A DNA stretch of 63,706 nucleotides from Alistipes sp. (GTDB taxonomy: Bacteria > Bacteroidota > Bacteroidia > Bacteroidales > Rikenellaceae): positions 1 to 63,706 of the forward strand of contig JAFULF010000035.1 of NCBI GenBank assembly GCA_017483225.1, in the 5' to 3' direction. The stretch's first letter is position 1; every line of letters begins with the position of its first letter. Positions 20,603 through 54,241 of this stretch are shown piece by piece. Position numbers and translations under genes: made by a program. Below the pieces are notes generated by a model. That model saw nothing but the letters and a program-made list of their open reading frames with translations, was not told the origin of the DNA and did not search any database.

Positions 20603-20798
20603 GAAGTTGTATAACAAGAGCTAATTTTAGGCTTAATCCATCTACGATGGCTTTTAGTTGCTTCGGCTCAAAAAACGCACTTGTTTTCATTCGCCTTAAT
20701 CGCAACCTTGCGAAGTCCGAGAAACCGCAGCATACTTGGGCGTATGCGAGGATTTCGAGGACGAGCATAACGACAAAGTAGCCTTGTTAGACAGCTTC
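20603..20798. repeat. Intergenic palindromic element, copy A (MITE-like)
   Basis: A 196-base element with imperfect terminal inverted repeats: GAAGTTGTATAACAAG (20603-20618) and CTTGTTAGACAGCTTC (20783-20798), 14 of 16 matching. Inside is a long hairpin GTCC...GGAC (20715-20762) topped by CATAC-TTGGGC-GTATG (20731-20746). Copies B and C share flanking sequence, ends and fold. It carries no gene. Confidence 0.75.
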
Positions 20799-20860
20799 TT
20801 TTTTGTACTCATTTGTAGGTATTTTTATGATTTACCCTCTCTTTTGCAGGAGAATAGGCG

Positions 20861-20888
20861 TTGCTTTCATATCTTTTTATTACCTTTG
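20861..20888 (+). promoter_or_regulatory. Promoter of the S1/P1 nuclease operon
   Basis: TTG (20861-20863) and TACCTTTG (20881-20888) precede the first nuclease gene, whose ATG is 42 bases downstream. This position also argues against the longer reading frame starting at 20736. Confidence 0.65.
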
Positions 20889-20930
20889 TTTGGTAAACAA
20901 ACAACAATAACAAAAAACCTAAACCTCACT

Positions 20931-21704
20931 ATGAAAAGATTTATCTTAACGATGTTGCTCTGCATTGTGGCAGGCGGCAACTCGTGGGCTTGGGACAATC
21001 GTGGGCACGCAACAATCGCCCGCATAGCCGAGCGTCACCTCACGCCTCGTGCCAAGGCCAACATCGAGAAGTATCTCAACGGGCAATCCATCGTCTATTA
21101 CGCCTCGTGGATGGATTTCAACCGCAAGGACGCTCCGTTTGATGTCACCAACGACTGGCACGTGGACTATTGGAGAGATGACCAACGCAAGGATGCCGAG
21201 GGCAACCCTCTGCCGCCTATCTCCGTGAGCCAAATCAAGCGTATCGTGGCCGAGATGTCCGATTTCAGGACGTTGAGCGACTCGCTGGTTAATGTAAACA
21301 TCAAGTATCTGGTACATCTGGTAGGCGATATGCACTGCCCCGTACATATCGACTTCCCGACATATCGCCCTGTGAAGGTTAAGTACAAGGGCAAGAGCGT
21401 GAAGTACCACAAACTCTGGGATGGAATAATCGTTGCCGACACCCGCTACGGAGCCTCGCCGCTATCGTTGGCGGAGGAGCTCGACCGTGCGACCGAGAAG
21501 GAGCGTGAGGAGCTGTCATCCGGAACTCCGGACTATTGGTACGCCGAGTCGGTGGCCTTTGCCGGCACTGCATACTCTCTCCTGCCGGAGAGCAAGGAGG
21601 TGGACAGGGAGTACATCACGAAGGCCAACGACATCATCAACCACATCTTCCCTGCCGCAGGCTATCGTCTGGCGAAGATTCTCAACACCATATTTGACAA
21701 ATAA
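20931..21704 (+). CDS. Secreted S1/P1-type zinc nuclease, first of four
   Basis: S1/P1 nucleases cut single-stranded DNA and RNA and remove 3'-phosphates, using three zinc ions; they act outside the cytoplasm. The start at 20931 gives 257 residues. The signal peptide ends SWA, so the mature protein starts at Trp21, whose free amino group is a zinc ligand in this family. All nine ligand positions can be matched: Trp21 and His26 (WDNRGH), Asp in YASWMD, His in DWHVDY, HLVGDMHCPVH (His, Asp, His) and HKLWD (His, Asp). It heads a five-gene operon with gaps of 12-25 bases; three paralogues and a PHP phosphoesterase follow. Confidence 0.88.
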   Translation: MKRFILTMLLCIVAGGNSWAWDNRGHATIARIAERHLTPRAKANIEKYLNGQSIVYYASWMDFNRKDAPFDVTNDWHVDYWRDDQRKDAEGNPLPPISVSQIKRIVAEMSDFRTLSDSLVNVNIKYLVHLVGDMHCPVHIDFPTYRPVKVKYKGKSVKYHKLWDGIIVADTRYGASPLSLAEELDRATEKEREELSSGTPDYWYAESVAFAGTAYSLLPESKEVDREYITKANDIINHIFPAAGYRLAKILNTIFDK

Positions 21705-21716
21705 CGACACGCAACC

Positions 21717-22562
21717 ATGAAAAAGATTCTGTTATCAATAATTGCCGTGCTCGCTCTTACGCCGGCAGTCAAGGCGTGGAACGGCGCACTGCACACTGCC
21801 GTTGCAGCCATTGCCGATGCCAACCTCACGGCGGAGGCCCGCAAGAGTATAGAGGCGGCACTCGACAACCATAGCATTGCCTACTACGCATATTGGATGG
21901 AGGAGGTCAGCGACACCGAGCAGTACCGACACACCGAGAATTGGCACAACGTAGCCCTCACGCCGAAGGGTAAAATCATCGCTGCCAAGAAGGCCGACAA
22001 GTCGGATGCCGGCGTAGTGCGCCGTGCCGACGCTCTGGAAGGGCTGAGCCTTGCGGTGGCGGCGTTGCAAAATCGTGCCTCACTCTCGAAGCAGGAGGTG
22101 GCGGACAACATCCGCTTCGTAGTACACATTATGGGCGACCTCCACTGCCCATCGCACTACGTCTTTACCGACCTGTTGGAGGAGCGCAAAATCAAGTACC
22201 GCTACGACAAGGAGAGCAAGACCCGCTCCTATATGAAGTTCTGGGAGGGGGATGTCGTGCACCACACCTTCGGATGGAAGGTCAATGAGTTCGTGCACCA
22301 GCTCAACCGTTTAAGCCCCGAGAAGGTTGCGGAGCTGACCAAGGGCAGCGTATGCGACTGGGTGACGGCCAATGCGAAGGTATATCGCCCGATATACTCC
22401 TACATAGAGCCTAACCAGCACCTGACGGCAAAGACCTACCGCCCGTGGCTAAACAAGAGTTTCGAGATGGCTACCGACCAGATTGGCGTGGCAGGCTACC
22501 GCCTGGCGGCACTGCTCAACGGTCTGTTTGACGAGTCGGCACCAAAGAAGAGTGTAAAATAA
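21717..22562 (+). CDS. Secreted S1/P1-like protein with altered zinc ligands, second of four
   Basis: A 281-residue paralogue. The signal peptide ends VKA, exposing Trp21, and WNGALH keeps the Trp1-His6 pair. HIMGDLHCPSH is intact and WHNV gives the His60 equivalent. Two sites differ from the other three copies: YASWMD is YAYWMEE (Asp to Glu) and HKxWD is MKFWEGD (His to Met, Asp to Glu). Zinc binding at two of the three metals should be changed, so it may be inactive, use other substrates, or act as a binding partner. There is also an extra loop around residues 80-110. It lies 12 bases after the first copy. Confidence 0.82.
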   Translation: MKKILLSIIAVLALTPAVKAWNGALHTAVAAIADANLTAEARKSIEAALDNHSIAYYAYWMEEVSDTEQYRHTENWHNVALTPKGKIIAAKKADKSDAGVVRRADALEGLSLAVAALQNRASLSKQEVADNIRFVVHIMGDLHCPSHYVFTDLLEERKIKYRYDKESKTRSYMKFWEGDVVHHTFGWKVNEFVHQLNRLSPEKVAELTKGSVCDWVTANAKVYRPIYSYIEPNQHLTAKTYRPWLNKSFEMATDQIGVAGYRLAALLNGLFDESAPKKSVK

Positions 22563-22587
22563 CACATCACACAAGGAGGAAAAAGTT

Positions 22588-23391
22588 ATGAAATCAAGAG
22601 TTATCATATTATCAGCGTTGCTATCCCTCTTCATCGGAGGTAACGCTTGGGGCTGGGGTCGTGACGTACACGCCACCATCACCTACATTGCCGAGCGACA
22701 CCTTACGCCGGAGGCAAAGGCAAATATCGAGGCCTGCATCGACGGCCGCTCCATCGTCTATTACGCATCGTGGATGGACAACTTCCGTGAGGAGTCGAAG
22801 CAGTGGCGACACTCGGCATACTACTACGTCGAGACGGGCAAGCCTGCCGGCACGGCATATCCGGAGCTGAGCACCACAATCAAGAAGCTCGGCAACTACA
22901 AAGCCCTCAGCGAGAAGGAGTTGAAGGAGCGCATCTACCACTTGGCGCACGCCCTCGGAGACTTCCACTGCCCGGGACACACCTACTCGCAGAACGAGGA
23001 CCGCAGCTGGAAGCTCAACTCACACTACGACGTGGTATTCGTCGATGGCAAGGTTATGTCGTACCACAAGATTTGGGACACCAACCTCATGCGCTACCTG
23101 CACCCATCGTTTGGCTATATGGACTTTGCGCACTCGCTCGACTGCAACATCTCGCAGGAGTATATCGACCGAGTGACCGCAGGAGGTCTGTACGAGTGGC
23201 TGTGCGACACCTACCAGTGCAGCAAGTACATCTACGACGTGATGAAGAAGATGCCGAAGGGCACTCCGAAGGAGGAGTTGAGCCGTATGACGCTCGACCA
23301 AGTGCAGGAGTTCAACACTCTGGCCGACGAGCAGATACTCAAAGCGGGCCTGCGTATGGCAAAGGTCATAAACGAGGCTTTCGGAAAGTAA
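22588..23391 (+). CDS. Secreted S1/P1-type zinc nuclease, third of four
   Basis: A 267-residue paralogue with the expected signal peptide (MKSRVIILSALLSLFIGG...AWG) and Trp23 at the mature N-terminus (WGRDVH). The remaining ligands are present: YASWMDN, WRHSAYY, HALGDFHCPGH and YHKIWD. A good ribosome-binding site (AGGAGG-like, AAGGAGGAAAAAG) precedes the ATG, which is stronger than at the other copies. Compared with copy 1 it has a longer segment between the last two metal motifs and the C-terminus (KKMPKGTPKEEL). Same operon, 25 bases after copy 2. Confidence 0.88.
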   Translation: MKSRVIILSALLSLFIGGNAWGWGRDVHATITYIAERHLTPEAKANIEACIDGRSIVYYASWMDNFREESKQWRHSAYYYVETGKPAGTAYPELSTTIKKLGNYKALSEKELKERIYHLAHALGDFHCPGHTYSQNEDRSWKLNSHYDVVFVDGKVMSYHKIWDTNLMRYLHPSFGYMDFAHSLDCNISQEYIDRVTAGGLYEWLCDTYQCSKYIYDVMKKMPKGTPKEELSRMTLDQVQEFNTLADEQILKAGLRMAKVINEAFGK

Positions 23392-23411
23392 ACATCTAAA
23401 ACAAGAGCGAT

Positions 23412-24209
23412 ATGAAGATTAAAGTAACTATCCTTACCCTCGCACTTGCCCTAATGGCAAGTTATGAGGTTTCGGCGTGGGGCCGTCTGGGCCACCGCAC
23501 CATTGCAGAGATTGCCGAGCGACACCTCACACCACAGGCAAAGGCGAACATCGAGAAATACACGCACGGCACACCTCTGGCCGACTACTCTCTGTGGATG
23601 GATGAGGTGCGCAATACGCCGGAGTACAAGAAGCCTACATCGGGTTGGCACGCCTCGATTGTAGATGAGAAGTGCCACACAAGCCAGGAGTTGCGCAACA
23701 AGCACCGCAAGGGTCGTGACTCGGTCACCGGAATCATCGACCTCTCCGAACTGTTAAAGAATCGCCAAGAGTTGAGCGACTCGACGGTTATGTTTGCTAT
23801 CAAGTGCTTGGTGCATATGGTTGGCGACTTCCACTGCCCGTCGCACCTGCGATACACCGACTTTGCCAACAAGGGTCATCAGAAGATAACATATCTGGGC
23901 CGTGAGACGACGTTGCACAAGGCGTGGGATACGGGCATCATCGCCTACAACCACAAGAAGTGGTCATATCAGCGCTATGCCGACAAGCTCGACTGCTACA
24001 CCAAGAAGCAGATTAAGGCTGTAACGAAGGGCGATGTCGAGCGATGGATGGAGGATGCAGCACGTGACGTGCGCCCATCAATCCATTGGGTGAAGGATGG
24101 CGACGTGCTGGGCGAGGAGTTCACAAAGAAGGCTCTGCCGCTGGCCGAGCAGCAGATTCAGAAGGCTGGCTACCAGCTTGCAAAGGTACTTAATACACTA
24201 TTCAAATAA
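23412..24209 (+). CDS. Secreted S1/P1-type zinc nuclease, fourth of four
   Basis: A 265-residue paralogue, signal peptide ending VSA with Trp23 at the mature start (WGRLGH). All ligand motifs are seen: SLWMDE, GWHASI, HMVGDFHCPSH and LHKAWD. The N-terminal block IAEIAERHLTPQAKANIEKY is nearly shared with copies 1 and 3, which indicates fairly recent duplication, while the substrate-facing middle (residues 75-115) differs in each copy. This fits divergence in substrate choice. It is 20 bases after copy 3 and 19 bases before the PHP gene. Confidence 0.88.
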   Translation: MKIKVTILTLALALMASYEVSAWGRLGHRTIAEIAERHLTPQAKANIEKYTHGTPLADYSLWMDEVRNTPEYKKPTSGWHASIVDEKCHTSQELRNKHRKGRDSVTGIIDLSELLKNRQELSDSTVMFAIKCLVHMVGDFHCPSHLRYTDFANKGHQKITYLGRETTLHKAWDTGIIAYNHKKWSYQRYADKLDCYTKKQIKAVTKGDVERWMEDAARDVRPSIHWVKDGDVLGEEFTKKALPLAEQQIQKAGYQLAKVLNTLFK

Positions 24210-24228
24210 ATAACCAAACTACCCTACA

Positions 24229-25419
24229 ATGAAACGATTACTTTTTCTTGCACTGCTACTTGTGGGCTCCTCCGCAGCCTATGCGCAGTATGACAATCCG
24301 GACATCATCCATACCGAGATGTCCAAGACCAAGGCTCCACACCGCCTCGGCATCATACTCCCGCAGGTAAACGGCTACACCCCTTACAAGGCCGACCTGC
24401 ACACCCACTCCATCTACTCCGACGCCGAGGTTACGGCGGCATACCGAGTTCGTGAGGCGTGGTCCGACGGGTTGGATGTTATGGCTGTGACCGAGCATAT
24501 CGAGTACCGCCGTATCGAGCCTTGTATGCTCAAATTCCTCAAAGGCTACACCGACGGGGAGGTCAAGAAGCCGGTAAACCACGCCGTGAACTACAAGGAT
24601 GCTGACGAGCGTGGCATCCCTGCCGACCTCAACTACCCTGTCAAGGAGGCGCAGAAGGAGGCAAAGAGGTACGGTCTGCTCATCATCCCGGGAGCCGAGA
24701 TTACACGTGCTCCGGAGACTATCGGCCACTACAACGCCCTCTTCACTACGGACAACAACACAATCTATACGCAGGATGCCTTGCAGGCTATCCGCAATGC
24801 TCGTGCGCAGGGTGCTCTCGTTATGCACAACCATCCCGGATGGAAGCGCAAGAGCGTCGAGATGCTCGAATTTGAGAAGAAGGCCTATGGCGAGGGTCTG
24901 ATTGACGGCGTAGAGATTATGAACGGAGGTCAGTTCTATCCGAAACTCATCGACCGCTGCAAGGGAGGCAAGCACTTTATGTCGGCAACCACCGACATCC
25001 ACACCACCACGCAGGAGGTATATGGACACCGTGGTCTGCACCGTAATATGACCTTTATATTTGCGAAGGAGAAGAGCTTGGAGAGCATCCGTGAGGCCCT
25101 CGAAGCACGCCGTACCATAGCGTATAGCGCAGGTCAGCTCGCCGGCGAGGAGCAACTTCTGGCCGACTTCTTCAAGGCTGCCATAGAGGTAAAGGTTGTG
25201 CAGGCGGACAAGAAGAAGAAAACACAGCGTGTGGAGATTCGTAACCTCTCCTCTATCGACTTCCAGATTCGTCAGGCAGGCGATATCGTGCAGGATGTAC
25301 ACGGCTTGGAGTCAATAATTCTCTCCGTCAAGGCGGGTTCGAGCGTTAAATTCGTCGTAGAGAATATGTGGATTGGCGACCACCTCCACCCTACCGTAGA
25401 GGTTGAGATTAAGAAGTAG
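24229..25419 (+). CDS. Secreted PHP-domain phosphoesterase, last gene of the nuclease operon
   Basis: A 396-residue protein with a signal peptide (MKRLLFLALLLVGSSAAYAQ). The PHP metal-binding motifs are in order: DLHTHSIYSD, TEHIEY, GAEITR, HNHPGW and TTDIHTT. The last 90 residues form a strand-rich domain. PHP enzymes hydrolyse phosphoesters, including nucleotides and oligonucleotide ends, so together with the four nucleases it plausibly finishes digestion of nucleic acid in the periplasm or outside the cell; substrate is not proven. Two paralogues lie at 31451-33829. A terminator follows at 25454-25492. Confidence 0.82.
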   Translation: MKRLLFLALLLVGSSAAYAQYDNPDIIHTEMSKTKAPHRLGIILPQVNGYTPYKADLHTHSIYSDAEVTAAYRVREAWSDGLDVMAVTEHIEYRRIEPCMLKFLKGYTDGEVKKPVNHAVNYKDADERGIPADLNYPVKEAQKEAKRYGLLIIPGAEITRAPETIGHYNALFTTDNNTIYTQDALQAIRNARAQGALVMHNHPGWKRKSVEMLEFEKKAYGEGLIDGVEIMNGGQFYPKLIDRCKGGKHFMSATTDIHTTTQEVYGHRGLHRNMTFIFAKEKSLESIREALEARRTIAYSAGQLAGEEQLLADFFKAAIEVKVVQADKKKKTQRVEIRNLSSIDFQIRQAGDIVQDVHGLESIILSVKAGSSVKFVVENMWIGDHLHPTVEVEIKK

Positions 25420-25453
25420 CACGCCACTGCAAGAGAGCACTACGAAACACAAT

Positions 25454-25492
25454 GAGCGTGTCCAACAAGTTTTCGGACACGCTCTTTCTTTT
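25454..25492 (+). terminator. Terminator of the nuclease-PHP operon
   Basis: Perfect 10-bp stem GAGCGTGTCC / GGACACGCTC with loop AACAAGTTTTC, then TTTCTTTT. Loop and flank match the hairpin at 39321-39359, and element B follows directly. Confidence 0.88.
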
Positions 25493-25494
25493 CA

Positions 25495-25614
25495 GAAGTT
25501 GTATAACAAGTGCTAATTTTAGGCCTATGAAGCCCGAAAAAGCGCAGTTTACTCGGCGTAAATGAGCATTTTGAGGGCGAGTATAACGACAAAGTAGCCT
25601 TGTTAGACAGCTTC
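25495..25614. repeat. Intergenic palindromic element, copy B (short form)
   Basis: 120 bases, with the same ends as copy A (GAAGTTGTATAACAAG at 25495, CTTGTTAGACAGCTTC at 25599). About 75 internal bases on the left arm are missing relative to A and C. The hairpin is kept: GCCC (25532) with GGGC (25575), tip TTTAC-TCGGC-GTAAA (25548-25562). Confidence 0.75.
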
Positions 25615-25635
25615 ACTTTATAGATTAAGTCGCAA

Positions 25636-27279
25636 CTACTTATTATCCTTGGCGCCTCGGTTATTATAGAGGAAGCGGCGAATTTTCTTCGACGGAGTCT
25701 TTACAAACTCCTCTTCCTCCTCGACAACCTCGGTGATGCGGGAGTAGCGGTTTACTCGTGCATTGACATACTCCTTAATCTCCGCCATCATCTGGTCACG
25801 GAACTTAACCCATTCATCCTTCTTCTGGTTCCACTCATCGACCATCTCTGCGTAGCGAGCCTCGATAGCCGCCTTGTCGAAGTGTACCAGAGCCACCAAA
25901 TGTCCCTCGTGCTCGGTAACAACCGACTCCGAGATAAAGACGTGCTGGTTGAGAACACTCTCGATATCCTCCGGATAGATATTCTCTCCACTTGGGCCCA
26001 GAATCATATTCTTCAAGCGACCACGTATATAGAGCCATCCGTCCTTGTCAAACGAGGCCAAGTCGCCGGTGCGGAACCAGCCATCCTCGGTAAACACCTC
26101 CTTGGTAGCCTCCTCATTCTTGTAGTAGCCAACCATCTGGCTTGGGCTCTTAACGACCAACTCGCCGATACCCTCCTCATTAGGATTCTCGATACGAGCC
26201 TCGATACCCTGCAACACAGGGCCCGTAGAACCGAGGCGCAACATACCATCCACAGCACCTGCAATAAGCGGAGCCGTCTCGGTCAGGCCGTAGCCGATAT
26301 CGTAGATAAACTTGGCATCCAGCAGGAACTGCTCAACCGTAGAGTCGAGTTTCGCACCACCGATACCGAAGAAGCGCACACGACCTCCGAAGGTCTTGGT
26401 AAGCGTTTTACCTGCCACACGGTGCAACATACGGCGGATGAATCCCACCTTGTAGAGGGTTGCGATAAAGGCGTTGGAGGTAAACTTCTTCAACACGGCA
26501 CCTCGGTAAATCTTCTCGATGATGAGCGGCACCGTAAGCATAATCGTAGGGCGCACCTCCTTCAATGCAGGCAGCAGGGTCGATACGGTAGGGGCCTTGT
26601 CAAGATATACGACGTGGCTACCGTGATAGAACGCCAGCACAAGGCCTATGGTACACTCGTAGGTATGAGCCAGTGGCAACACCGAGAGGAAAATATCGGT
26701 CTCGTGAACGAGGAAGAGCTTGTCAATCATCCACAACTGCGAGCAGAGGTTGTAGTGCGTAAGCATAACGCCCTTTGGCTGCGAGGTTGTTCCCGACGTG
26801 TAGATGATGGCCGCCAAATCCTCCGGCTGCGGAGTGCGGGTTGCACCCTTGCCACCCTTGACATTCTGCGAGATGATGCCGAGGTTCTTGGTACGTACCA
26901 CGAGGTTCAATTTATCGGCCGTGGTCTTCGAGAGTTTCGAGAAGAGTTTATCGGACACAAAGAGAGCCTTCGACTCCGAGTGTTCTACAATACGGTCGAT
27001 ATCCTCCGACGAGAAGTCCGGCATAATAGGCACCACAACATATCCTGCGGAGGTAATTGCGAAGTACGCCACACCCCAGTTAGGTACGCTGCTACTGAGA
27101 ATTGCCACACGGTCACCCGGCTGAACATCTGCATCCATTAGCATCTCCTGAATCTGCTGCACTCTCTCTCCGACCTCCTTATAGGTCACCTCTGCTCCAC
27201 GCCACAACGAGAACGCTACTCGGTCTGAGAATTTTTCAAGACTCTGGTGCAACACCTCTCTTAAAGTGTTAATTTTCAT
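25636..27279 (-). CDS. AMP-dependent acyl-CoA synthetase (long-chain type)
   Basis: A 547-residue member of the acyl/aryl-CoA ligase (ANL) family, which activates a carboxylic acid with ATP and transfers it to CoA or another thiol. Motifs: P-loop IIYTSGTTSQPKGVM, GYGLTETAP, and the hinge region GDLASFDKDGWLYIRGRLKNMIL. The C-terminus is basic (TPSKKIRRFLY) and carries the catalytic Lys candidate. Length and the fatty-acid-ligase look of residues 180-300 suggest a long-chain fatty acid substrate. It stands alone, convergent with the nuclease operon and divergent from queG. Confidence 0.88.
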   Translation of the reverse strand: MKINTLREVLHQSLEKFSDRVAFSLWRGAEVTYKEVGERVQQIQEMLMDADVQPGDRVAILSSSVPNWGVAYFAITSAGYVVVPIMPDFSSEDIDRIVEHSESKALFVSDKLFSKLSKTTADKLNLVVRTKNLGIISQNVKGGKGATRTPQPEDLAAIIYTSGTTSQPKGVMLTHYNLCSQLWMIDKLFLVHETDIFLSVLPLAHTYECTIGLVLAFYHGSHVVYLDKAPTVSTLLPALKEVRPTIMLTVPLIIEKIYRGAVLKKFTSNAFIATLYKVGFIRRMLHRVAGKTLTKTFGGRVRFFGIGGAKLDSTVEQFLLDAKFIYDIGYGLTETAPLIAGAVDGMLRLGSTGPVLQGIEARIENPNEEGIGELVVKSPSQMVGYYKNEEATKEVFTEDGWFRTGDLASFDKDGWLYIRGRLKNMILGPSGENIYPEDIESVLNQHVFISESVVTEHEGHLVALVHFDKAAIEARYAEMVDEWNQKKDEWVKFRDQMMAEIKEYVNARVNRYSRITEVVEEEEEFVKTPSKKIRRFLYNNRGAKDNK

Positions 27280-27388
27280 CTGTTTCTCTAATTTAAGTTA
27301 TACTTGTTTTGTTGGTTTATCGTGTTGTTTTTCGATAAATCGGTAATATACAATTATTTGCAAATATAATGTATTTCCCCATATTTTC

Positions 27389-27396
27389 ACTATTTT
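27389..27396 (+). promoter_or_regulatory. -7 box upstream of queG
   Basis: TATTTTTG fits TAnnTTTG and lies 12-20 bases ahead of the two possible start codons (27408, 27417), so the leader would be very short. Confidence 0.45.
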
Positions 27397-27407
27397 TGGG
27401 ACTAAAT

Positions 27408-28313: not shown

Positions 28314-28350
28314 ATAGTCACCAAATGTGCAACTCTATCACATTTTTTAT

Positions 28351-28358
28351 TAAATTTG
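28351..28358 (+). promoter_or_regulatory. -7 box of the lipid/glycan cassette
   Basis: TAAATTTG, 34 bases before the ATG at 28392. It overlaps the earlier in-frame ATG at 28356, which argues for the later start. Confidence 0.6.
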
Positions 28359-28391
28359 TACACTATACTTACAAACAACACACCAAAGAAG

Positions 28392-29123: not shown

Positions 29124-29129
29124 ACAAGG

Positions 29130-31336: not shown

Positions 31337-31352
31337 AGGTGTAAATAACAAG

Positions 31353-31449
31353 GAGCTGTCTAACAAGTCTTCAAAAATAAAAATTACCCCCGTCAGATGC
31401 ACTTCTGGCGGGGGTAAAATCGTTAAAATTAGACTTGTCGGACAGCCTC
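31353..31449. repeat. Nested hairpin between convergent genes
   Basis: Outer arms GAGCTGTCTAACAAGTCT (from 31353) and AGACTTGTCGGACAGCCTC (to 31449) pair, with an inner hairpin TTACCCCCGTCAGA / TTCTGGCGGGGGTAA (31384-31417). The outer arms belong to the GAGGCTGTCCG/AACAAGT family seen elsewhere. It probably terminates both convergent transcripts. Confidence 0.7.
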
Positions 31450-31450
31450 T

Positions 31451-32623: not shown

Positions 32624-32644
32624 TTCGTGTTTAGTTGTTTATGA

Positions 32645-39361: not shown

Positions 39362-39560
39362 TAAGTTGTATAACAAGTGCTAATTTTAGGCTTAATCCAT
39401 CTACGATGGCTTTTGGTTGCTTCGGCTCAGAAAAAATACACATTTGTTTTCATTCGCCTTAATCACAACCTTACGAAGCCCGAAAAAGCGCAGTTTACTC
39501 GGCGTAAATGAGTATTTTGAGGGCGAGTATAACGACAAAGTAGCCTTGTTAGACAGCTTC
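39362..39560. repeat. Intergenic palindromic element, copy C
   Basis: 199 bases, with ends TAAGTTGTATAACAAG (39362) and CTTGTTAGACAGCTTC (39545). The left arm matches copy A closely (TAATCCATCTACGATGGCTTT) while the hairpin matches copy B: TTTAC-TCGGC-GTAAA at 39494-39508 inside GCCC / GGGC. It lies between the DUF4015 terminator and the porin promoter. Confidence 0.75.
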
Positions 39561-40819: not shown

Positions 40820-40834
40820 AAAACAAAATATGTT

Positions 40835-42133: not shown

Positions 42134-42168
42134 CAGTCTGCTCGGATAGCTGCGAACAAATAGTCGAA

Positions 42169-42206
42169 AACCTCGCCCGAAACAAGTTCAGGGCGGGGTT
42201 TTCTGT
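42169..42206 (+). terminator. Terminator of the porin-transporter pair
   Basis: AACCTCGCCC pairs with GGGCGGGGTT (one mismatch) and a TTTTCTGTTTT tract follows. Confidence 0.82.
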
Positions 42207-42221
42207 TTTCCCATTTTTTTC

Positions 42222-42229
42222 TAACTTTG
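42222..42229 (+). promoter_or_regulatory. -7 box of the MBL gene
   Basis: TAACTTTG, 25 bases before the ATG at 42254. It overlaps the earlier ATG (42227), supporting the later start. Confidence 0.6.
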
Positions 42230-42253
42230 CATAGAACTAAAACCACAACACCT

Positions 42254-43495: not shown

Positions 43496-43592
43496 GCACA
43501 CCCTTGGTGTCATACAGAGAGGCCTCTCCGGCGCAGATTTTCAACAATCGGGGGGGGGCTTCTGTGGCTACGAGAGAGGGGCAATGGAGGCT

Positions 43593-45011: not shown

Positions 45012-45044
45012 AAACCTCCAAAATCGTGGCAAAGGTACAAATTT

Positions 45045-46896: not shown

Positions 46897-46908
46897 ACTG
46901 CGCCTCCC

Positions 46909-48279
46909 TTAAAACAGTGACTGAACGGATGCTCCCGCATTGTTATCCTGCGACGGCTCCTGACCCTCGGCAACCTTCTCCACGGCACGCTTGCCACGTC
47001 CCACGGTCTCGGTAATAAACTCCACCTTACGGGTACGGAATGCCGGCACACTCTTGCGCAGGTGCACCTCCGAGTAGTTACGACGGTGCTTGTCGAGGGT
47101 ATTCGACCCCGAGGCACCGATATTCTGCGGCTTGGAGATACCGACCACCGGCTTGGTTGCTGCCGCCACCGGAGGCAGGGTCGTCACGGGCGTTGCCGGA
47201 GGTGTATCCGCCACCGTCACGGCCGGCTTCGCAACAATCTGTCGAGGCATCGAGTAGGCCTCGGTATAGTATCCCGACGGGAAGCCCGTCACCACGATAA
47301 TAATCTCCAACTTATCGCCGAGTTCCGGCTTGATGCTCGTACCCCAGATAACGTCGGCGTAGCGCATACAGCCATTTTCGTCCTTCTCGCCCGTGAACTC
47401 CTGCACACGGTTTATGGCCGTATCGACCTCCTCGATGGTGAGGATGCCGTCGGCAGCCACGGCGAAGTTGATAAGCACGTTTCGAGCTCCGACGATGGAG
47501 GCACCTCCGAAGAGTGGCGACGAGAGCGACGCCTCAACGGCCTCTATGGCACGGTTATCGCCGGCGGCTGACGACACGCCCATAACGGCGCATCCGCTAC
47601 CCTTCATAACCTTCTTGACATCCGAGAAATCGACGCTCACAAGGTTGCTCTTGGTCATCACAATCTCGGCGATACCCTTTGCCGCCAACGCCAGCACATC
47701 GTGCGCCTTGCCAAAAGCCTGCTCGATAGGCAGCGAGCCGTAGAGTTTTATTATCGACTCATTGCTCAACACGATGAGCGAATCGACCCACTCGCTCATA
47801 CGCTCCAAGCCCGCCTTCGCCTGCGCCATTCGCTTCGGGCCTTCATTCACCGGAGGCATCGTGACGATGGCCACGGTCAGGATACCCATCTCGTGCGCCA
47901 GCTGCGCAATGATAGGCGAGGCTCCCGTACCCGTACCGCCACCCATACCTGCGGCGATAAAGAGCATCTGCGTATTGTGTGCCTGCAAATATTGGCGTAT
48001 CTGCTCGATTGAGCTCTTGGTCTTACGCTCACCCTCCTCTGCCTCGTTACCTGCACCCAGGCCGTCACCCAAGCATATCTTCTGGTCATCCGGCAGAGGG
48101 CTCTTGCGCAGAGCCTTGATATCGGTATTGCATACCACCAGATTCACTCCGCTGATACCCATCTCCCACATATGGTCCACAGCGTTACCACCTGCGCCGC
48201 CGACACCGGCAACCATTATCAGCGCAGGAATACCCGCAACATCGGGCATATCGTCCATTATATTGTCTATCTCTCCCAT
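46909..48279 (-). CDS. ftsZ: Cell division protein FtsZ
   Basis: The tubulin-like GTPase that forms the division ring. The 456-residue protein has the GTP-binding GVGGAGGNAVDHMW and the tubulin signature GGGTGTGASP, plus a T7 loop region. A variable linker (about 330-400) is rich in Pro/Val/Thr. The conserved C-terminal peptide, which binds FtsA and others, reads SVPAFRTRKVEF near residue 415 but is not terminal: about 35 further residues follow (ending DNNAGASVQSLF). It lies after ftsA in the expected order. Confidence 0.96.
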   Translation of the reverse strand: MGEIDNIMDDMPDVAGIPALIMVAGVGGAGGNAVDHMWEMGISGVNLVVCNTDIKALRKSPLPDDQKICLGDGLGAGNEAEEGERKTKSSIEQIRQYLQAHNTQMLFIAAGMGGGTGTGASPIIAQLAHEMGILTVAIVTMPPVNEGPKRMAQAKAGLERMSEWVDSLIVLSNESIIKLYGSLPIEQAFGKAHDVLALAAKGIAEIVMTKSNLVSVDFSDVKKVMKGSGCAVMGVSSAAGDNRAIEAVEASLSSPLFGGASIVGARNVLINFAVAADGILTIEEVDTAINRVQEFTGEKDENGCMRYADVIWGTSIKPELGDKLEIIIVVTGFPSGYYTEAYSMPRQIVAKPAVTVADTPPATPVTTLPPVAAATKPVVGISKPQNIGASGSNTLDKHRRNYSEVHLRKSVPAFRTRKVEFITETVGRGKRAVEKVAEGQEPSQDNNAGASVQSLF

Positions 48280-48285
48280 AGTCTG

Positions 48286-49818
48286 CTACAAAATATCGTT
48301 TCCATCCTCTTCGTTACCTACAATCATATTCACGGTTCGGGCGATGCCGTGCCAAGCACGGGAGAAGAGTCCCGGCCCCTTGTTGCCCTTCTTGCTCTTG
48401 TTGCCCTCGGTGTTTCTCTCCTCCGGTCTCTGCTCCTGCGACTCAACCTTCGACGTGGTGTCGCCCTCATCCGTCACCTCACCCGTCAGTGTCGCAGGGC
48501 CCTTAACCTCTGCAACCTCCGTCACCGGCACCTCGGCCGACTTCGGCACCTCGGCCACTGGTCGCTGCGTTGTCACGCTCGGCTGTGGGCCTCTTACCGT
48601 CTGCGAGTGCGGCTGTGGCTGCACGGGCACAGCACCACGCTGTGCCGTCACGTTGCAGGCCTGACAGGTCGCTCCGTAGAGCATCACCGCCACGGCTGCC
48701 GAGTGCGCAAAGGTGCTGATATTATCGAGCGAACCCTCGGTAACGCCCTCCTTCGCACCGCCCAGACGAGCCGGCAACTTGGTCTCACGACGGAACAGCT
48801 CGTCGATATTCTCCAACGTACTACATCCGCCCGTAATGACGAAACCGCACGGCACCTTGCTCGTCATCTTGGCATACTTGACCTCCGCCATAGCATACTC
48901 GACGATATCTTTGAGGCGGGCCTCGATAATCGAGACGAGGTTACGCTGCGGGAAGTCACGCTTGTGCATACCCGCCAACGCCATAGGGATAACGCTATCG
49001 GCCTCGACCATATCTGCCACGGCCGAGCCATATCGCTTCTTGATGCTCTCGGTCTTGCTCTCGAAGATACCGAAGGCGTGCATATCGGCATTGATACTCT
49101 GTGCGCCGATAGGCACCGTGGCTATATAACGCAGTTTGCCACCACGAGTAACTGACACGTCGGTCGTGCCGCCACCGATATCCACGATGACAACACCCTC
49201 CTCACGCTCCTCCTGCGAGAGCAGCGTGCGTGGCAGTTCGCACGGATTCACACGCACCGCCAACGGCGGTTTGAGCCCCGCATTGAAGAACGACATACGC
49301 ACACGCTCCAACTGGCTCTTCGGGCAGAGTATGAACATAAAGGTCGAGGAGAGAGTGTGGCCAAACGAGCCGACAGGGTCCTCAATCTCTCGCCCCTCAT
49401 CAATGACATAGTTTTGCGGTATGCGTGCGATAATCTCCTCGCCCGAGTCGGCGTGTACATTGTACATACGCTCGTGCAACGAGGCTACATCCTCCTTCGA
49501 GATGCAGTTCGAGGTGCTATCCTTGACGAATACGTGGTCGGTGTAGTAGGCGCAACGTACCGACTCGCTCGAAATACCGGCATAGGCTTCGTTGATACAT
49601 ATGTGGAGCTCCTCCTCCAACTCCTCCTTCGCCTTGCGGATTGCCACTCCCACCGTATTGATGTTGTCAATACGGCCGGCCGAGACACCCGACTCTATCT
49701 CCTGCGAGGATACGCCCTCAATCTCTATCGCTCCGCCGGAACCCTTGCGTGAGCCCACCACCATAACTACGTTGGATGTACCGATATCGACACCCACAAA
49801 ATAACTCTTGCTTTCCAT
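48286..49818 (-). CDS. ftsA: Cell division protein FtsA
   Basis: The actin-like protein that tethers FtsZ to the inner membrane. I use the start at 49818 (MESKSYFVGVDIGTSN), two bases past the ftsQ stop. Segments: VDIGTSNVVMVV, IVDIGGGTTDVS and ITGGCSTLEN (ATP site). The last 120 residues are a long low-complexity Pro/Gln/Glu tail, ending in an amphipathic, membrane-targeting helix (GLFSRAWHGIARTVNMIVG). The tail is longer than in E. coli FtsA, which is common in Bacteroidota. Third gene of murG-murC-ftsQ-ftsA-ftsZ. Confidence 0.95.
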   Translation of the reverse strand: MESKSYFVGVDIGTSNVVMVVGSRKGSGGAIEIEGVSSQEIESGVSAGRIDNINTVGVAIRKAKEELEEELHICINEAYAGISSESVRCAYYTDHVFVKDSTSNCISKEDVASLHERMYNVHADSGEEIIARIPQNYVIDEGREIEDPVGSFGHTLSSTFMFILCPKSQLERVRMSFFNAGLKPPLAVRVNPCELPRTLLSQEEREEGVVIVDIGGGTTDVSVTRGGKLRYIATVPIGAQSINADMHAFGIFESKTESIKKRYGSAVADMVEADSVIPMALAGMHKRDFPQRNLVSIIEARLKDIVEYAMAEVKYAKMTSKVPCGFVITGGCSTLENIDELFRRETKLPARLGGAKEGVTEGSLDNISTFAHSAAVAVMLYGATCQACNVTAQRGAVPVQPQPHSQTVRGPQPSVTTQRPVAEVPKSAEVPVTEVAEVKGPATLTGEVTDEGDTTSKVESQEQRPEERNTEGNKSKKGNKGPGLFSRAWHGIARTVNMIVGNEEDGNDIL

Positions 49819-49820
49819 AT

Positions 49821-50918
49821 CTACTGCGTGCAAACCACTTGATTATTATATCTTAAATCTATCTTACTCCATCGTTCCCATCCCAGACTCGACATAGCAC
49901 TGCGATAGAAACTCATCAGTCGCTCCAACTTCTGCGACGACCCCTTCGGCTCGCCCAACTCTATGCTAAAATTGCCGCTTCGAGGCACTACCGAGAGCGA
50001 CAACGCCCCGTAGGAGGTTGTCGTTGCGCATATCTGCACTATCTCCGCCCGCCAGAAGCTATCCCGTTGCACCTGCTTCACAAATGCCAGCAGGTGGCAC
50101 AGGTCGTCATACTGCATCTGCAAACGCTGCATTCTCTGCTGCTCCGCCCGCTGTCGTGCCGTCACGGCATCGAGTCGGGATTGCACATCACGTCGCTGCG
50201 CCTCTATATCAAGCCTCTTGCGCAGCTTATCGTCCTTAAACTGCTCCAAGCGACGACGATAGTCCGAAGGCTTCTCGTTGCCATACTTCTCAATCGAGGT
50301 CTCGCCGACTTTATCATAACTCTCCTTTAACGCCTTGTCCTGCTCCCAGAGTGGCTTCTTCTCCTTGCCTATCTCCTTAATTTTCTGCTCCGAGGCTCTG
50401 CGCAGGGAGACCATATAGTCGGAGAGCATACCCTCGAAGGCAGGGTCAAACAGCGGCTTGTAGTCGCCCGTGACCACGGGGGCATAGAGCGACGAGGCCT
50501 CCGGAGTCGAGAAGACGAAGCCCTCCTCCGTAATATATACGTTGTAGCCATCCACAAGCAGGCGCAACAGAGGCTGTCGCTGGCTGATATCTATATGCAG
50601 CGTACCCCGATAGGAGGCATAGACGTTCACGTTATCCACGAATCCGTTGCGGGCAATCATATCACGTATGCCCACCACATCGACCCTCGACAGCGGTGCT
50701 CCGATGGTGGCAAATCCCTCCGTGCGCAACCACTCTCGCACACGCTGCGCACCCACCAGACGGCCCGTAGTCATACTATCCACGATAGCGATATCGACAC
50801 GCTCTATGGTCTGTGACTCCAAGTGGCGCTGTACCCTCACACCCGACCAAGCGACGTATGCAATCACGCCTGCCCAGATTGTAAGCATAAGCAATATTTT
50901 ACCAATCTTCTGCCACAT
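49821..50918 (-). CDS. ftsQ: Cell division protein FtsQ with coiled-coil insertion
   Basis: FtsQ is a single-pass membrane protein that recruits FtsB/FtsL and later division proteins. Start at 50918 (MWQKIGKILLMLTIW) gives 365 residues, about 100 more than usual for this group. One membrane helix (about 8-25) is followed by a POTRA-like domain (VDIAIVDSM..., about 40-100) and the start of the beta domain. A highly charged segment (about 165-265, rich in Lys, Glu, Arg, Gln, e.g. QRRDVQSRLDAVTARQRAEQ) then interrupts it; the beta domain resumes (AEIVQICATTTSYGALSLSV). This is an insertion of coiled-coil type. Confidence 0.85.
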   Translation of the reverse strand: MWQKIGKILLMLTIWAGVIAYVAWSGVRVQRHLESQTIERVDIAIVDSMTTGRLVGAQRVREWLRTEGFATIGAPLSRVDVVGIRDMIARNGFVDNVNVYASYRGTLHIDISQRQPLLRLLVDGYNVYITEEGFVFSTPEASSLYAPVVTGDYKPLFDPAFEGMLSDYMVSLRRASEQKIKEIGKEKKPLWEQDKALKESYDKVGETSIEKYGNEKPSDYRRRLEQFKDDKLRKRLDIEAQRRDVQSRLDAVTARQRAEQQRMQRLQMQYDDLCHLLAFVKQVQRDSFWRAEIVQICATTTSYGALSLSVVPRSGNFSIELGEPKGSSQKLERLMSFYRSAMSSLGWERWSKIDLRYNNQVVCTQ

Positions 50919-50932
50919 ACCCTGTCTCTGTT

Positions 50933-52315
50933 TTAAGCCTTTATCTTCAACTGCTCGGCAACCGCCTCGCAGCACGCATCAATATTTCCTGCGCCGAAGG
51001 TCACCACCACGTCGGTATCCATCTGCGCTAACGTCTGCGCCAGCGCCTCACGCTCCACGATACGGCACGGCACCCCCACTCTCTCGGCGATAATCTCCGA
51101 GCAGATGCCCTCTATCGGCTCCTCACGAGCCGGATATATCGGCAGCAGCACCACCTCGTCGGCCTCGCTCAACGCCTCGGCGAACTCCACGTAAAGGTCA
51201 CGGGTGCGGGTGTAGAGGTGTGGCTGAAATACCGCCGTCATACGACGACCAGGCAACATACGCTTCACGGAGGTTATCGTCGCCGACAACTCCCTCGGGT
51301 GGTGGGCGTAGTCATCCATATAGACCTGCTTCGGCGTATTTATGTAGAACTCGAAACGTCGCTTCACGCCCGAGAACTCCTCCAACGCCTCACGTACCAC
51401 GTCTATATGCAGCTGCTTACCCTCGGCACGTGCTGCGCACCAGAACAGAGCCACCGCCGCCACGGTATTCTCGATATTCACCCAGCCCGGTATGCCGAGC
51501 GTACAATCCTCGATGACCACATCCGGAGTAACGATATCGAAGCGGTAGTATCCGCCCTCCATAAGGAAGATGTTGCGGGCGTAGAAGTCGCACGGCTCAT
51601 CATACGAGTAACGATACACCTCTATCTCGGTGTTGCGTATAGCCACATCTACCCCCTGCTTTATAATCAGCGCACCGCCGCTCTGTATCTGCCCTATAAA
51701 CTGCGAGAAGGCCTCCTTCACCGCCTCGTGTGTTCCGTATATGTCGAGGTGGTCGGCATCTGCGGATGTCACCACCGCCACGTGCGGATGCAGGCGCAGG
51801 AACGAGCGGTCAAACTCGTCGGCCTCCACCACCATACGCTCACCAACGCCAAGCGTGAGGTTGCTGCCGAAGTTCTTGGAGATGCCTCCAAGGAAGGCAC
51901 ACCCCTCGCCCGCTGCTCGTGCATTGAGCCACGCCGCAAGGGTCGATGTGGTGGTCTTGCCGTGTGTGCCGGCCACCGCCATCACAAACTTGCCCTCGGC
52001 AAGCAGTCCCAGCATCTGCGAGCGTTTCAGGCACTCGAAGCCTCCGTCGAGGAACATCCTCAACTCGCTATGGTCGGCAGGCACTGCCGGCGTATATACT
52101 ACCACCGTGCGCTCCGCATCACGGAACGGCGCAGGTATCTGCTCCACATCATCCTCGTAGTGAATGGCAGCACCCTCCTCCTCCAAGCGGAGCGTGAGAG
52201 GTGTCTGCGTGCGGTCGTAGCCCGCCACCTGCCACCCCTCGTGGAGGAAGTAGCGTGCCAAAGCACTCATTCCGATACCGCCTATGCCGACAAAATATAT
52301 ATTGTTCTTCTTCAT
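50933..52315 (-). CDS. murC: UDP-N-acetylmuramate-L-alanine ligase MurC
   Basis: MurC adds L-alanine to UDP-MurNAc, the first amino acid of the peptidoglycan stem. The 460-residue protein has the N-terminal nucleotide fold GIGGIGMSALARYFL and the ATP site AGTHGKTTTSTLAAWL. The family order and length are normal. It lies 23 bases after murG and 14 bases before ftsQ, as in a typical division/cell-wall cluster. Confidence 0.96.
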   Translation of the reverse strand: MKKNNIYFVGIGGIGMSALARYFLHEGWQVAGYDRTQTPLTLRLEEEGAAIHYEDDVEQIPAPFRDAERTVVVYTPAVPADHSELRMFLDGGFECLKRSQMLGLLAEGKFVMAVAGTHGKTTTSTLAAWLNARAAGEGCAFLGGISKNFGSNLTLGVGERMVVEADEFDRSFLRLHPHVAVVTSADADHLDIYGTHEAVKEAFSQFIGQIQSGGALIIKQGVDVAIRNTEIEVYRYSYDEPCDFYARNIFLMEGGYYRFDIVTPDVVIEDCTLGIPGWVNIENTVAAVALFWCAARAEGKQLHIDVVREALEEFSGVKRRFEFYINTPKQVYMDDYAHHPRELSATITSVKRMLPGRRMTAVFQPHLYTRTRDLYVEFAEALSEADEVVLLPIYPAREEPIEGICSEIIAERVGVPCRIVEREALAQTLAQMDTDVVVTFGAGNIDACCEAVAEQLKIKA

Positions 52316-52338
52316 CCTCTTTCAGTTCGGGGCAACCC

Positions 52339-53439
52339 CTATTTTGCATATTTTAGAATCTCGTCCGCCACACGCTCCGCCGAGTCGGCAATGGCGAGCT
52401 TCTCTATATTTTTCGAGAGCTTCTGCAACTCCGCCTTATCCGAAACCATACGCAACGCCGTGGAGATAGCGCAATCCACCGCCTCCGAGTCCTTGACCAT
52501 ACGTGCAGCGTGACGCTCCACCAGCGCCATAGCATTCTTGGTCTGGTGGTCCTCCGCCACGTTTGGCGACGGGATAAAGAGCGTAGGCTTGCCCGCCAGA
52601 CACAACTCCGACACGGTGCAGGCACCGCTGCGGGAGATTACCACATCGGCGATGGCGTATGCGTAGTCCATACGCTCGATAAATGCCCCCTGCCAGATGT
52701 TCTGCGTAGGGTACTGGTCGAGGAAGGCTCGCATCTCCGCCTCGTAGTAGCGTCCCGTCTGCCATATCACCTGCACAGGAGCCTTACCCCCGAGGGTCAT
52801 CACCCACGAGCGCATCATATTGTTGAAGGTGCGTGTGCCGAGCGAGCCTCCCACCACAAGCACCACGGGCAACTCCGCATTGAAGCCATAGTGGGCCAAC
52901 GCCTCCTCACGGGAGATATCCTGCGCCGAGAATGCCGAGCGAAGCGGGTTTCCCGTCTTGACAATCTTCTGCGAGTCGAAGAAACGCTCCATACCGTCAT
53001 ACGCCACACATACCGAGCGTGCCGAGCCACCTACGAGCTTATTCACAAGGCCGGCGTAGGAGTTCTGCTCCTGAATCACGGTAGGTATGCCCATACACTG
53101 CGCCGTCCAGAGTATCGGGGCACTGGCGTAGCCTCCGAAGCCGGCGACGATGTCGGGCTTGAAGTTCTTGATGATGGTGCGAGCCTGACGCAGACTGCCG
53201 AGCAGTCGCACCGGCAACGTGAAGTTGCTCCACGCAAAACGTCGCTGCAAACCCACAATCGGCAGACCTACGATACGATATCCCAACTTCGGGATAAGCG
53301 TCATCTCCATCTTGCCCTCGGCACCCACAAAGAGAATCTCCACATCCTCGCCCAGACGGCGACGCAGAGCCTCTGCAACCGATACGGCAGGGTAAATATG
53401 ACCGCCCGTACCACCTCCTGAAAGTATAATTCGCTTCAT
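52339..53439 (-). CDS. murG: UDP-GlcNAc:lipid-I transferase MurG
   Basis: MurG adds GlcNAc to lipid I on the inner face of the membrane, giving lipid II. The 366-residue protein begins MKRIILSGGGTGGHIYPAVSVAEAL; the donor-binding region SRSGACTVSELCLAGKPTLFIPSP near residue 270 fits. It is the first gene of the five-gene cluster here. The genes that usually precede it (ftsW, murD, mraY, murE, ftsI, mraW, mraZ) are not present; 800 bases of repeats lie upstream instead. Confidence 0.95.
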   Translation of the reverse strand: MKRIILSGGGTGGHIYPAVSVAEALRRRLGEDVEILFVGAEGKMEMTLIPKLGYRIVGLPIVGLQRRFAWSNFTLPVRLLGSLRQARTIIKNFKPDIVAGFGGYASAPILWTAQCMGIPTVIQEQNSYAGLVNKLVGGSARSVCVAYDGMERFFDSQKIVKTGNPLRSAFSAQDISREEALAHYGFNAELPVVLVVGGSLGTRTFNNMMRSWVMTLGGKAPVQVIWQTGRYYEAEMRAFLDQYPTQNIWQGAFIERMDYAYAIADVVISRSGACTVSELCLAGKPTLFIPSPNVAEDHQTKNAMALVERHAARMVKDSEAVDCAISTALRMVSDKAELQKLSKNIEKLAIADSAERVADEILKYAK

Positions 53440-53953
53440 AAATTTGGCAATTACCGAATATTAGCTACAAAATTATGGATTATTCCTCGAACTTCAAAGC
53501 ATAATAGCAAGAAACGAGTAATAAAATTACTCGGTAAGGATAGAAAGGGATAGGAGTGGGTGTGCAGGGTGTGGTCGGGAGGGGGGTAGCAACGACTTTG
53601 CGCAGGCTTAAAGTCAAGTAAGGTCAAGTAAAGTCAAGTAAGGTCGCTCCTTTGGAGCTGCGCAACGGGCTTGGCGCAACAGACTTGGCCCAACAGACTT
53701 GGCGCAACATTAGGGAAATTAGGGAGATTAGAGAGATTAGAGAGCGCAAGGCTATTCTCCTTAAACTCATTAAACTCATTAAATTCCCTTTTGCGCAACG
53801 ATAAAGGTTGTTAAAGGCGATTAAAGGTTATTAAGGGGAACGCAGGCGGTTGGGGCAAGGTTGTAAGAGTCCGTAGCGTTTTTTTTTTGCGCACCCTTAA
53901 CAACCCTTAATATCCCTTAACTCCCTTAATAGCCTTTAACTTCTTCGCCCGAC
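53440..53953. repeat. Gene-free region made of short tandem repeats
   Basis: No reading frame is supportable. At least five separate short arrays follow each other: a 10-base unit AAGTCAAGTA/AGGTCAAGTA (53611-53645), a 14-base unit CAACAGACTTGGCG (53663-53704), a 9-base unit ATTAGAGAG/ATTAGGGAA (53709-53744), a 9-base unit TTAAACTCA (53761-53787), and a 10-base unit CCCTTAACAA-type (53893-53940). The last resembles, inverted, the AAAGGTTATT-type stretch near 53805-53840. Confidence 0.75.
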
Positions 53954-54241
53954 CTACCCACCAGCACAACCCCTAAAAATCATTTTAAGTGATGAGTTGC
54001 AACGCTCGCCGATAGGCTCGTCGATGGGCTGTACTTGGCGTACTGCCCATTGACGAGAATGAGGTAGCGGAAGCAAATCGCTCTTAAAATGGTTTTCTAC
54101 CCACCAGCACAACACAAAAAAATCATTTTAAGGAGGCAGTTACAACGCTAACGAGTACGCCACGGTGGGAGCATACTCGGCGTATGTGACCATCGTGGCG
54201 CACGCAAGTTAAGGCAGTAAATGCCCCTTAAAATGATTTTT
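53954..54241. repeat. Two tandem palindromic elements with inverted ends (copies D1 and D2)
   Basis: Two units of about 143 bases each begin CTACCCACCAGCACAAC (53954, 54097). Each has terminal inverted repeats AAAAATCATTTTAAG / CTTAAAATGATTTTT (53975 with 54083; 54118 with 54227, the latter perfect over 15 bases). D1 contains a stem CTCGTC-ATGGGC / GCCCAT-GACGAG (54017-54057) with tip GTAC-TTGGC-GTAC; D2 contains GCCACG / CGTGGC (54159-54099 side, closing at 54099-54199 region 54159-54199) with tip CATAC-TCGGC-GTATG (54072-side of the second unit, 54172-54186). The last inverted repeat overlaps the yifB stop codon. Confidence 0.78.

Follow-up and report, generated by a model that had tools for sequence, protein, structure and literature searches.

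The window, a stretch of 63,706 nt from an Alistipes sp. genome (assembly GCA_017483225.1, contig JAFULF010000035.1) analysed at its full length, carries five hairpins that the original prediction described as one covarying motif with a constant TYGGC loop, kept by selection on the folded form and possibly recognised as single-stranded DNA by an HUH/RAYT-type transposase. All five tips were borne out at the positions claimed, each of them in an intergenic region on the + strand. Rather than standing alone, they form the ends of five imperfect palindromes of about 120 nt each, and they do not constitute a new motif. Based on sequence and architecture, it is well supported that they are copies of an element like the enterobacterial repetitive intergenic consensus (ERIC). 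Their common structure comes in two subtypes, A, with tips at 20731, 25548 and 39494, and B, with tips at 54031 and 54172.

Three models were used for the searches reported here: R1, a covariance model built from this genome only; R2, a model of ten Enterobacterales ERICs (E. coli and Salmonella consensus, Serratia, Providencia and Proteus); and R3, a broader model. The five elements, and the gene that the last of them meets, are as follows.

20603..20798, + strand: ERIC-like element, subtype A, long form; tip CATAC-TTGGGC-GTATG at 20731-20746; R1 match 20681-20795; R3 match 20707-20770
25495..25614, + strand: ERIC-like element, subtype A, short form; tip TTTAC-TCGGC-GTAAA at 25548-25562; R1 match 25498-25611; R3 match 25492-25615 (E 3e-12)
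39362..39560, + strand: ERIC-like element, subtype A, long form; tip TTTAC-TCGGC-GTAAA at 39494-39508; R1 match 39443-39557
53975..54096, + strand: ERIC-like element, subtype B, first of a tandem pair; tip GTAC-TTGGC-GTAC at 54031-54043; R1 match 53979-54093
54118..54241, + strand: ERIC-like element, subtype B, second of the pair; tip CATAC-TCGGC-GTATG at 54172-54186; R2 match 54118-54240 (E 1.9e-7)
54240..55778, - strand: gene of 512 aa, presumably ComM / Mg-chelatase-like to judge from its sequence; its stop codon touches the element 54118-54241

The arms of the three A copies resemble GAAGTTGTATAACAAG / CTTGTTAGACAGCTTC, and those of the tandem B pair are AAAATCATTTTAAG / CTTAAAATGATTTT. 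In the element 54118-54241 the outer arms (54118-54133 and 54226-54241) are complementary at 16 of 16 positions, and its 3' end reaches the stop codon of the convergent gene (TAA, complement of 54240-54242). The element 25495..25614 is also flanked by convergent genes, its model end lying 24 nt off the stop codon of the gene 25636-27279 on the - strand. Short forms measure 119-124 nt. The two long A forms have about 77 nt more, placed between the left arm and the inner hairpin, at the internal loop; this insert has a small hairpin of its own and is covered, wholly or partly, by at least nine further matches elsewhere in the genome.

Sequence identity and host range

The core of the element was searched for as an exact pattern, GGAGCATACT-N(3-4)-GTATGTGAC, in 84,980 genomes, and was found in at least 114 stretches against about 4 expected by chance across the whole collection (an estimate from its 19 fixed letters). 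In the published E. coli and Salmonella ERIC (RU-1) sequences, as given in the available part of the source (PMC2759123), the same core appears with one compensated change, with AAGGCGGC...AACGC flanks. Most subtype B and other copies have GGAGCATAC...GTATGTGAC, which is one compensated change from ERIC, and the subtype A core reads GCAGTTTAC...GTAAATGAG. The records bearing the core carry titles from eight phyla and are mostly metagenome-assembled genomes (MAGs). They include Alistipes, Rikenellaceae, Porphyromonas, Tannerella, Odoribacter and Leadbetterella in the Bacteroidota, and Pantoea, Erwinia, Serratia, Providencia, Proteus, Kosakonia, Phytobacter and Klebsiella in the Enterobacterales. 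Other titles name Clostridia, Eubacterium, Caproiciproducens, Desulfatibacillaceae, Desulfobacterales, Arcobacter, Sulfurimonas, Helicobacteraceae, Lentisphaerae and Victivallales, together with Myxococcales and Spirochaetales, each of these last two being represented by one MAG; contamination is possible for single phyla. Three viral IMG/VR contigs (L351, L352 and L353) also have an ERIC-like core.

Model R2 has a sole match in the window at E<=10, the second element of the tandem pair, which it aligns over 126 of 126 positions with 41.8 bits; at this threshold it missed the three A copies and 53975-54096. Beyond the window, it matches copies elsewhere in this genome, on other contigs, as well as copies from other phyla. 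In the opposite direction, R1 matched 47 of the 117 core-selected loci at E<=1, with 56 matches in all, enterobacterial ERICs and other phyla among them.

Outside the core, AAGGC-type and AACGC-type motifs flank it, one on each side, in 55 of 106 non-redundant contexts, whereas 200 shuffles gave 1.4 on average and never more than 6. By group, they were present in 17 of 27 contexts in Enterobacterales, 7 of 14 in Rikenellaceae, 11 of 24 in other Bacteroidota, 19 of 38 in the remaining phyla (outside Bacteroidota and Enterobacterales) and 1 of 3 in viral contigs; about half of the core contexts lack flank motifs as defined here. In a multi-phylum alignment of 26 sequences picked for diversity, the GC of AAGGC and the AA of AACGCAG are invariant. 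The architecture held in common with ERIC consists of an outer stem, an AAGGC/AACGCAG internal loop, an inner stem, a GGAG/TGACC internal loop and a CATAC-GTATG tip. Subtype A (AGGC / AACGAC) and the copies on contig C39 keep the order of internal-loop motifs found in ERIC; AAGGC and AACGC have swapped sides in subtype B.

ERIC was described in enterobacteria in 1990-91, and we label the present element "ERIC-like" because its host lies outside the known range, a limit of range rather than of structure. That range, in the part of a 2024 review available, is Enterobacteriaceae and Vibrionaceae (PMC10969869). Although ERIC itself is already known, its extension to Bacteroidales and other phyla, the swap of loop motifs and the replication polarity described below were not found among the titles listed in searches of the open-licence literature, none of which was on ERIC in Bacteroidota or on ERIC and the direction of replication; the main ERIC papers may contain some of this. 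As for known Rfam families, only two tRNAs in the window exceeded the gathering score, and a permissive search of six loci gave a single sub-threshold match, within dnaA.

Fold and covariation

Folded as single-stranded DNA, the element 54118-54241 reaches -36.3 kcal/mol against -13.8 (standard deviation 2.5) in 200 shuffles (z -8.95), and it forms one end-to-end hairpin on both strands (z about -8.9). The first member of the pair (53975-54095) has a z of -6.9 relative to shuffles, and the short A copy (25496-25614) has a z of -4.5 on the core strand and -3.2 on the other.

Covariation was measured in an alignment of 14 diverse copies from this genome, hand-chosen and non-random, which has 37 pairs across the entire palindrome. 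Both sides change in 29 of these, as the original prediction of a structure maintained by paired change would have it, and covariation extends beyond the tip to the whole palindrome, being strongest in the longer outer and inner stems. Paired cells make up 88.7%, compared with 67.5% (standard deviation 1.4) in shuffles and 34-46% when the alignment is slid by 1-3 columns, and the covariation score is 0.560 against 0.196 in shuffles and at most 0.146 in slides. The consensus structure was derived from the same alignment, so that the slide control favours it; the margin is nonetheless large. The constant TYGGC loop did not hold up, being present in only 19 of 44 non-redundant copies of the genome; it seemed constant because the five examples chanced to share one loop type. 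More widespread are a T as first letter of the loop (39 of 44) and the commonest tip stem, CATAC/GTATG (28 of 44). The structure is kept through paired change, but selection on the folded form is unproven as the cause, given that correction within the palindrome could also pair changes.

Wobble mismatches bear on which strand folds. In this genome, with positions capped, G.T and A.C mismatches number 25 and 21, which indicates no strand preference; the uncapped G.T excess (50:28), which came mainly from one fixed position, is gone after capping, and an early count on 11 common pairs was balanced at 21:21. In 106 contexts of other records, likewise capped, the count is 95:55 in favour of the core strand (31 positions versus 12, p 0.005). 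The test is a weak one, in that a terminator control is likewise without excess (20:17). On these counts, strand-specific folding is supported across records, but not within this genome alone. One copy (C16:152093-152208) has its tip turned round with respect to its outer arms, resembling an in-place inversion of the inner palindrome.

Copies and their orientation

Model R1 gave 80 matches in the genome at E<=1, of which two are the opposite strand of another match, leaving 78 distinct. After removal of three on contig C36, which duplicates part of contig C28, there are 75 elements in 59 clusters (8 double and 4 triple) in this 1.86-Mb genome. None is centred within a gene predicted by our home-made gene caller; the elements are intergenic and dispersed. 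Contig C16 (174 kb) has 20 of the 75, about 3.5 times the density elsewhere. Three tandem copies lie just downstream of a dnaA-like gene at both C28:74277-74655 and C36:9542-9920, and the two stretches are identical there in opposite orientation, probably as a result of redundant assembly.

Within the genus, 28 of 37 genomes (this one included) match R1 at E<=0.01, with from 2 to at least 61 copies (61 being the number of candidates scored per genome), and 9 have no match. In other families of the order, 8 of 24 genomes have 1-8 matches at E<=0.1. A sample of the phylum, searched with R3 under stricter filters and with 11 candidates scored per genome, gave matches at E<=1e-4 in 34 of 296 genomes and 9 of 140 genera, which are lower bounds. 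In nine relatives from other families, compared by eye, no neighbouring gene was seen to be in common.

The orientation of the core tracks replication rather than genes. Skew was read for the 44 clusters that have 9 kb or more of context (15 of the 59 are without it). In 41 of them the core lies on the C-rich strand, and GC3 skew corrected for gene strand agrees in 37 of 41; the local gene majority predicts core orientation in 20 of 44, or 26 of 44 with an alternative gene set. Clusters between convergent genes, where the gene context is symmetrical, follow the skew in 21 of 22 cases. Among 60 windows from 14 sister genomes, hand-picked from the best matches listed, the skew rule holds in 49 (p 8e-7) and in 47 of 57 once corrected, compared with 37 of 60 for the gene majority; where skew and gene majority disagree, skew is correct in 15 and genes in 3.

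ERICs proper show a similar polarity on two complete chromosomes of Providencia rettgeri. In RB151, 40 of 41 among the matches listed (150 exist) are on the - strand in the first half and on the + strand in the second, and the local skew, which reverses somewhere between 2.4 and 2.7 Mb, is in accord in 15 of 17 element windows. In PROV023, 34 of 38 among the matches listed (76 exist) follow the half, with the split at 2.05 of 4.02 Mb; its four exceptions are clustered at 3.08-3.16 Mb, as they would be after a recent inversion.

A second polarity relates the element to gene ends. Both neighbours could be assigned, with the same gene caller, for 51 of the 59 clusters, the other 8 being at contig edges. 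A neighbour's stop codon faces the 3' side of the core strand in 41 of the 51 and the 5' side in 33, and only 1 of 51 lies between two start codons. On the 3' side the stop is 1-7 nt away in 18 of 41 clusters and overlaps in 3, whereas on the 5' side it is within 7 nt in 1 of 33. In other records, counting stops at -6 to 14 nt from a fixed element edge (15 contexts were within a long open reading frame and 20 had no neighbour), the 3' and 5' sides compare as 9/13 and 0/7 in Enterobacterales, 3/4 and 0/7 in Rikenellaceae, 3/13 and 0/11 in other Bacteroidota, and 11/17 and 1/12 in other phyla. The adjoining stops are TAA in 18 of 20 cases, compared with 252 of 452 background genes (Fisher p 0.002). 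De Gregorio reportedly found in 2005 that ERICs near stop codons in Yersinia favour one orientation.

Several hairpins and repeats were observed near the elements. Close to A elements, terminator-like hairpins at 31340-31450, 20552-20600 and 25444-25490 are similar to the outer arms of that subtype (GCTGTCYRACAAG), and one of them has a second hairpin nested within its loop. A terminator alone was rejected as an identity for the element, some elements sitting beyond a complete terminator; examples of genes upstream of a terminator and element are ones that we take, from their sequences, to be ribosomal-protein-L9-like and GAPDH-like. Beside the tandem B pair, the intergenic stretch 53600-53960 has short degenerate repeats (TTAAGG / GTCAAGTAAGG / TTGGCGCAACAGAC). 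A 39-nt perfect inverted repeat at both contig ends (101-139 and 63554-63592) is likely a dispersed repeat that interrupted assembly.

Movement, rival explanations and known systems

We think it probable that these elements are non-autonomous mobile palindromes of about 120 nt, of the ERIC kind, that move as replication-coupled single-stranded hairpins through a trans-acting enzyme. The case for mobility comes from the roughly 75 dispersed copies, from presence in 28 of 37 genomes of the genus and from a species-specific position beside the one gene compared. The tandem pair stands beside the ComM-like gene in this genome, and R1 at E<=1 matches none of 29 orthologous loci of the genus; with orthologous proteins 67-81% identical, this indicates absence of the element rather than an exact empty site, and one orthologue (G016) has sequence only to 63 nt past the stop codon. 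In another (G017), a small similar tip was seen by eye about 190 nt downstream, at a place without an R1 match at E<=1.

We infer the mechanism of movement as follows. The element would form at the replication fork, or insert there, as a single-stranded hairpin. Under the skew convention, the lagging-strand template is the strand that carries the complement of the core; a hairpin joined to it immediately 3' of the end of a gene, often a TAA stop codon, would give both polarities, to stop codons and to replication, at once. IS200/IS605 elements insert 3' of a short target, and the proposed joining would resemble their insertion on the lagging-strand template. A trans-acting enzyme may recognise the tip and the internal loops, with the outer arms needing complementarity only, which would explain their variation between copies. 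Once in place, the hairpin would probably be transcribed within a 3' untranslated region and may alter the stability of the upstream message; ERIC orientation has been reported to affect mRNA stability in Yersinia, in the parts of two sources available (PMC2229807, PMC10969869).

Several observations weigh against movement of this kind. No mobilising enzyme was found among the Y1, DDE_3 and RVT_1 searches, and no same-species pair of empty and filled sites was available, so insertion or excision was not seen. TA is present at both outer ends in only 7 of 66 copies, and the TA duplication of ERIC is unproven here. Two sister genomes, G001 (4 of 8) and G030 (10 of 14), fit the skew rule weakly, and it holds in 5 of 7 copies having a start codon on the 3' side. 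The Providencia matches listed are the best-scoring ones, several of them tandem neighbours, and both chromosomes bear one species name. "Lagging strand" is a reading of GC skew rather than of a mapped origin, and strand polarity could instead come from selection against one orientation.

The paired changes might reflect not selection but correction of the palindrome by template switching between its arms. We consider this unlikely as a full account, although it can operate alongside replication-coupled movement: the wobble mismatches in this genome are without strand preference (25:21, capped) and complementarity extends into copy-specific outer arms, but the unpaired internal loops, which correction would erase, are kept across phyla, and copies in other records show a G.T excess on the core strand. 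Selection on RNA, with the hairpin retained in 3' untranslated regions for transcript stability, RNase processing or termination, could account for both the covariation (29 pairs) and the placement at stop codons, which the 3' side meets here and in other groups, and the orientation effect in Yersinia is in keeping with it. It appears quite unlikely, however, given that replication predicts orientation better than genes do, even at convergent-gene sites, that none of 29 orthologous loci has the copy compared, and that the gene-sense strand has no G.U excess, the excess in other records being on the opposite, core strand. Polar chromosome signals such as KOPS and Chi offer another model, in which orientation would be selected for segregation or repair; the strong bias of orientation with respect to GC skew or chromosome half, found in two phyla, would be expected of one. 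We give this hardly any credence: matches are missing in 9 of 37 genus genomes (E<=0.01) and 262 of 296 phylum genomes (E<=1e-4, strict filters), and an essential signal would not allow such absence.

Other accounts invoke a known transposase. An ordinary miniature inverted-repeat transposable element (MITE) of a DDE transposon, for example a TA-targeting IS630, would be cut and pasted through its terminal inverted repeats. ERIC is filed as such a MITE, with TA at its termini and a target duplication, in a table in the available part of PMC2229807, and some copies here end in TAAAAATC...GATTTTTA. Yet the termini are complementary but subtype-specific while the middle is conserved, and the IS630-type DDE_3, the one DDE family searched, exceeded its cut-off in none of the 37 genus genomes (two weak sub-cut-off hits, both E 9e-4, were in G002 and G018). 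The polarity of 41/44 here, and of 40/41 among the RB151 matches listed, is also unlike that of the pneumococcal BOX, RUP and SPRITE repeats, of which 61-63% lie on the leading strand, in line with the coding bias, in the part of the source available (PMC3049150). On balance we regard a DDE MITE as improbable.

A RAYT/REP system, in which short palindromes are read as single-stranded DNA by a Y1 HUH transposase, would also be expected to be palindromic, dispersed and replication-polar. We find it very improbable, because PF01797 was found in 0 of 37 genus genomes, 28 of which carry the element, and the same search detects a Y1 transposase in 19 of 24 genomes from elsewhere in the order; within the genus the idea is refuted unless the enzyme is too divergent for PF01797. 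The element is also about 120 nt rather than 20-40, with a layout common with ERIC. Of the suggestion of single-stranded DNA recognised by an HUH/RAYT transposase, the single strand fits the replication polarity and the transposase does not survive. Reverse transcriptases of group II introns or retrons were also rejected: RVT_1 is present in 14 of 37 genomes but has no match in 19 of the 28 carriers, among them G001, which is 96% complete, with at least 61 element matches and no RVT_1 match. MAG completeness of 71-99% could hide a gene in single genomes but hardly in all.

More tentatively, and with rather less confidence than in the movement itself, we suggest a pan-bacterial family of ERIC-like, replication-coupled single-strand hairpins, with the tip and internal loops as recognition sites, an orientation that records fork direction, and a mover that is none of Y1, IS630-type DDE or reverse transcriptase. 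The mover might be a new class of enzyme, or the replication or repair machinery itself. If the lock to fork direction holds in distant phyla, DDE cut-and-paste would become unlikely and a single-strand, fork-coupled route testable. The range of ERIC would then widen from two families to several phyla, which could, we presume, partly explain ERIC-PCR bands outside enterobacteria, and the element would provide a sequence marker for replication direction in draft genomes.

Among known systems, YPAL inserts immediately after stop codons. Like the present element, YPAL/RU-2 of Yersinia (168 bp) is a long palindrome whose targets adjoin dyad symmetry, in the part of its description available; it was rejected as an identity, given that the published RU-2 sequence (168 nt), checked by eye, is without the ERIC core, and is a separate family. 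REP/REPIN-RAYT systems are also dispersed intergenic palindromes with a conceivable single-strand mechanism, but in the available part of the source they have units of 20-40 nt and a RAYT gene (PMC3733652), compared with 119-124 nt and the absence of PF01797 here. The hairpin recognition and lagging-strand coupling of IS200/IS605 would look alike, as far as the available part of PMC6006769 describes them, but the genus has no Y1 transposase (0 of 37) and an autonomous copy of the element was not seen. The closest likeness is to ERIC (also IRU or RU-1, 127 bp). The copies here differ from it in their Bacteroidales-type host, in A+T-rich outer arms unrelated in sequence, in loops of 5 nt rather than 4, and in the swapped loop motifs of subtype B. 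They share with it the length, the imperfect palindrome, the intergenic and dispersed positions with stop codons adjoining one side, the core GGAGC(A/T)TAC-loop-GTA(A/T)GTGAC, and the AAGGC...AACGC motifs of the internal loop.

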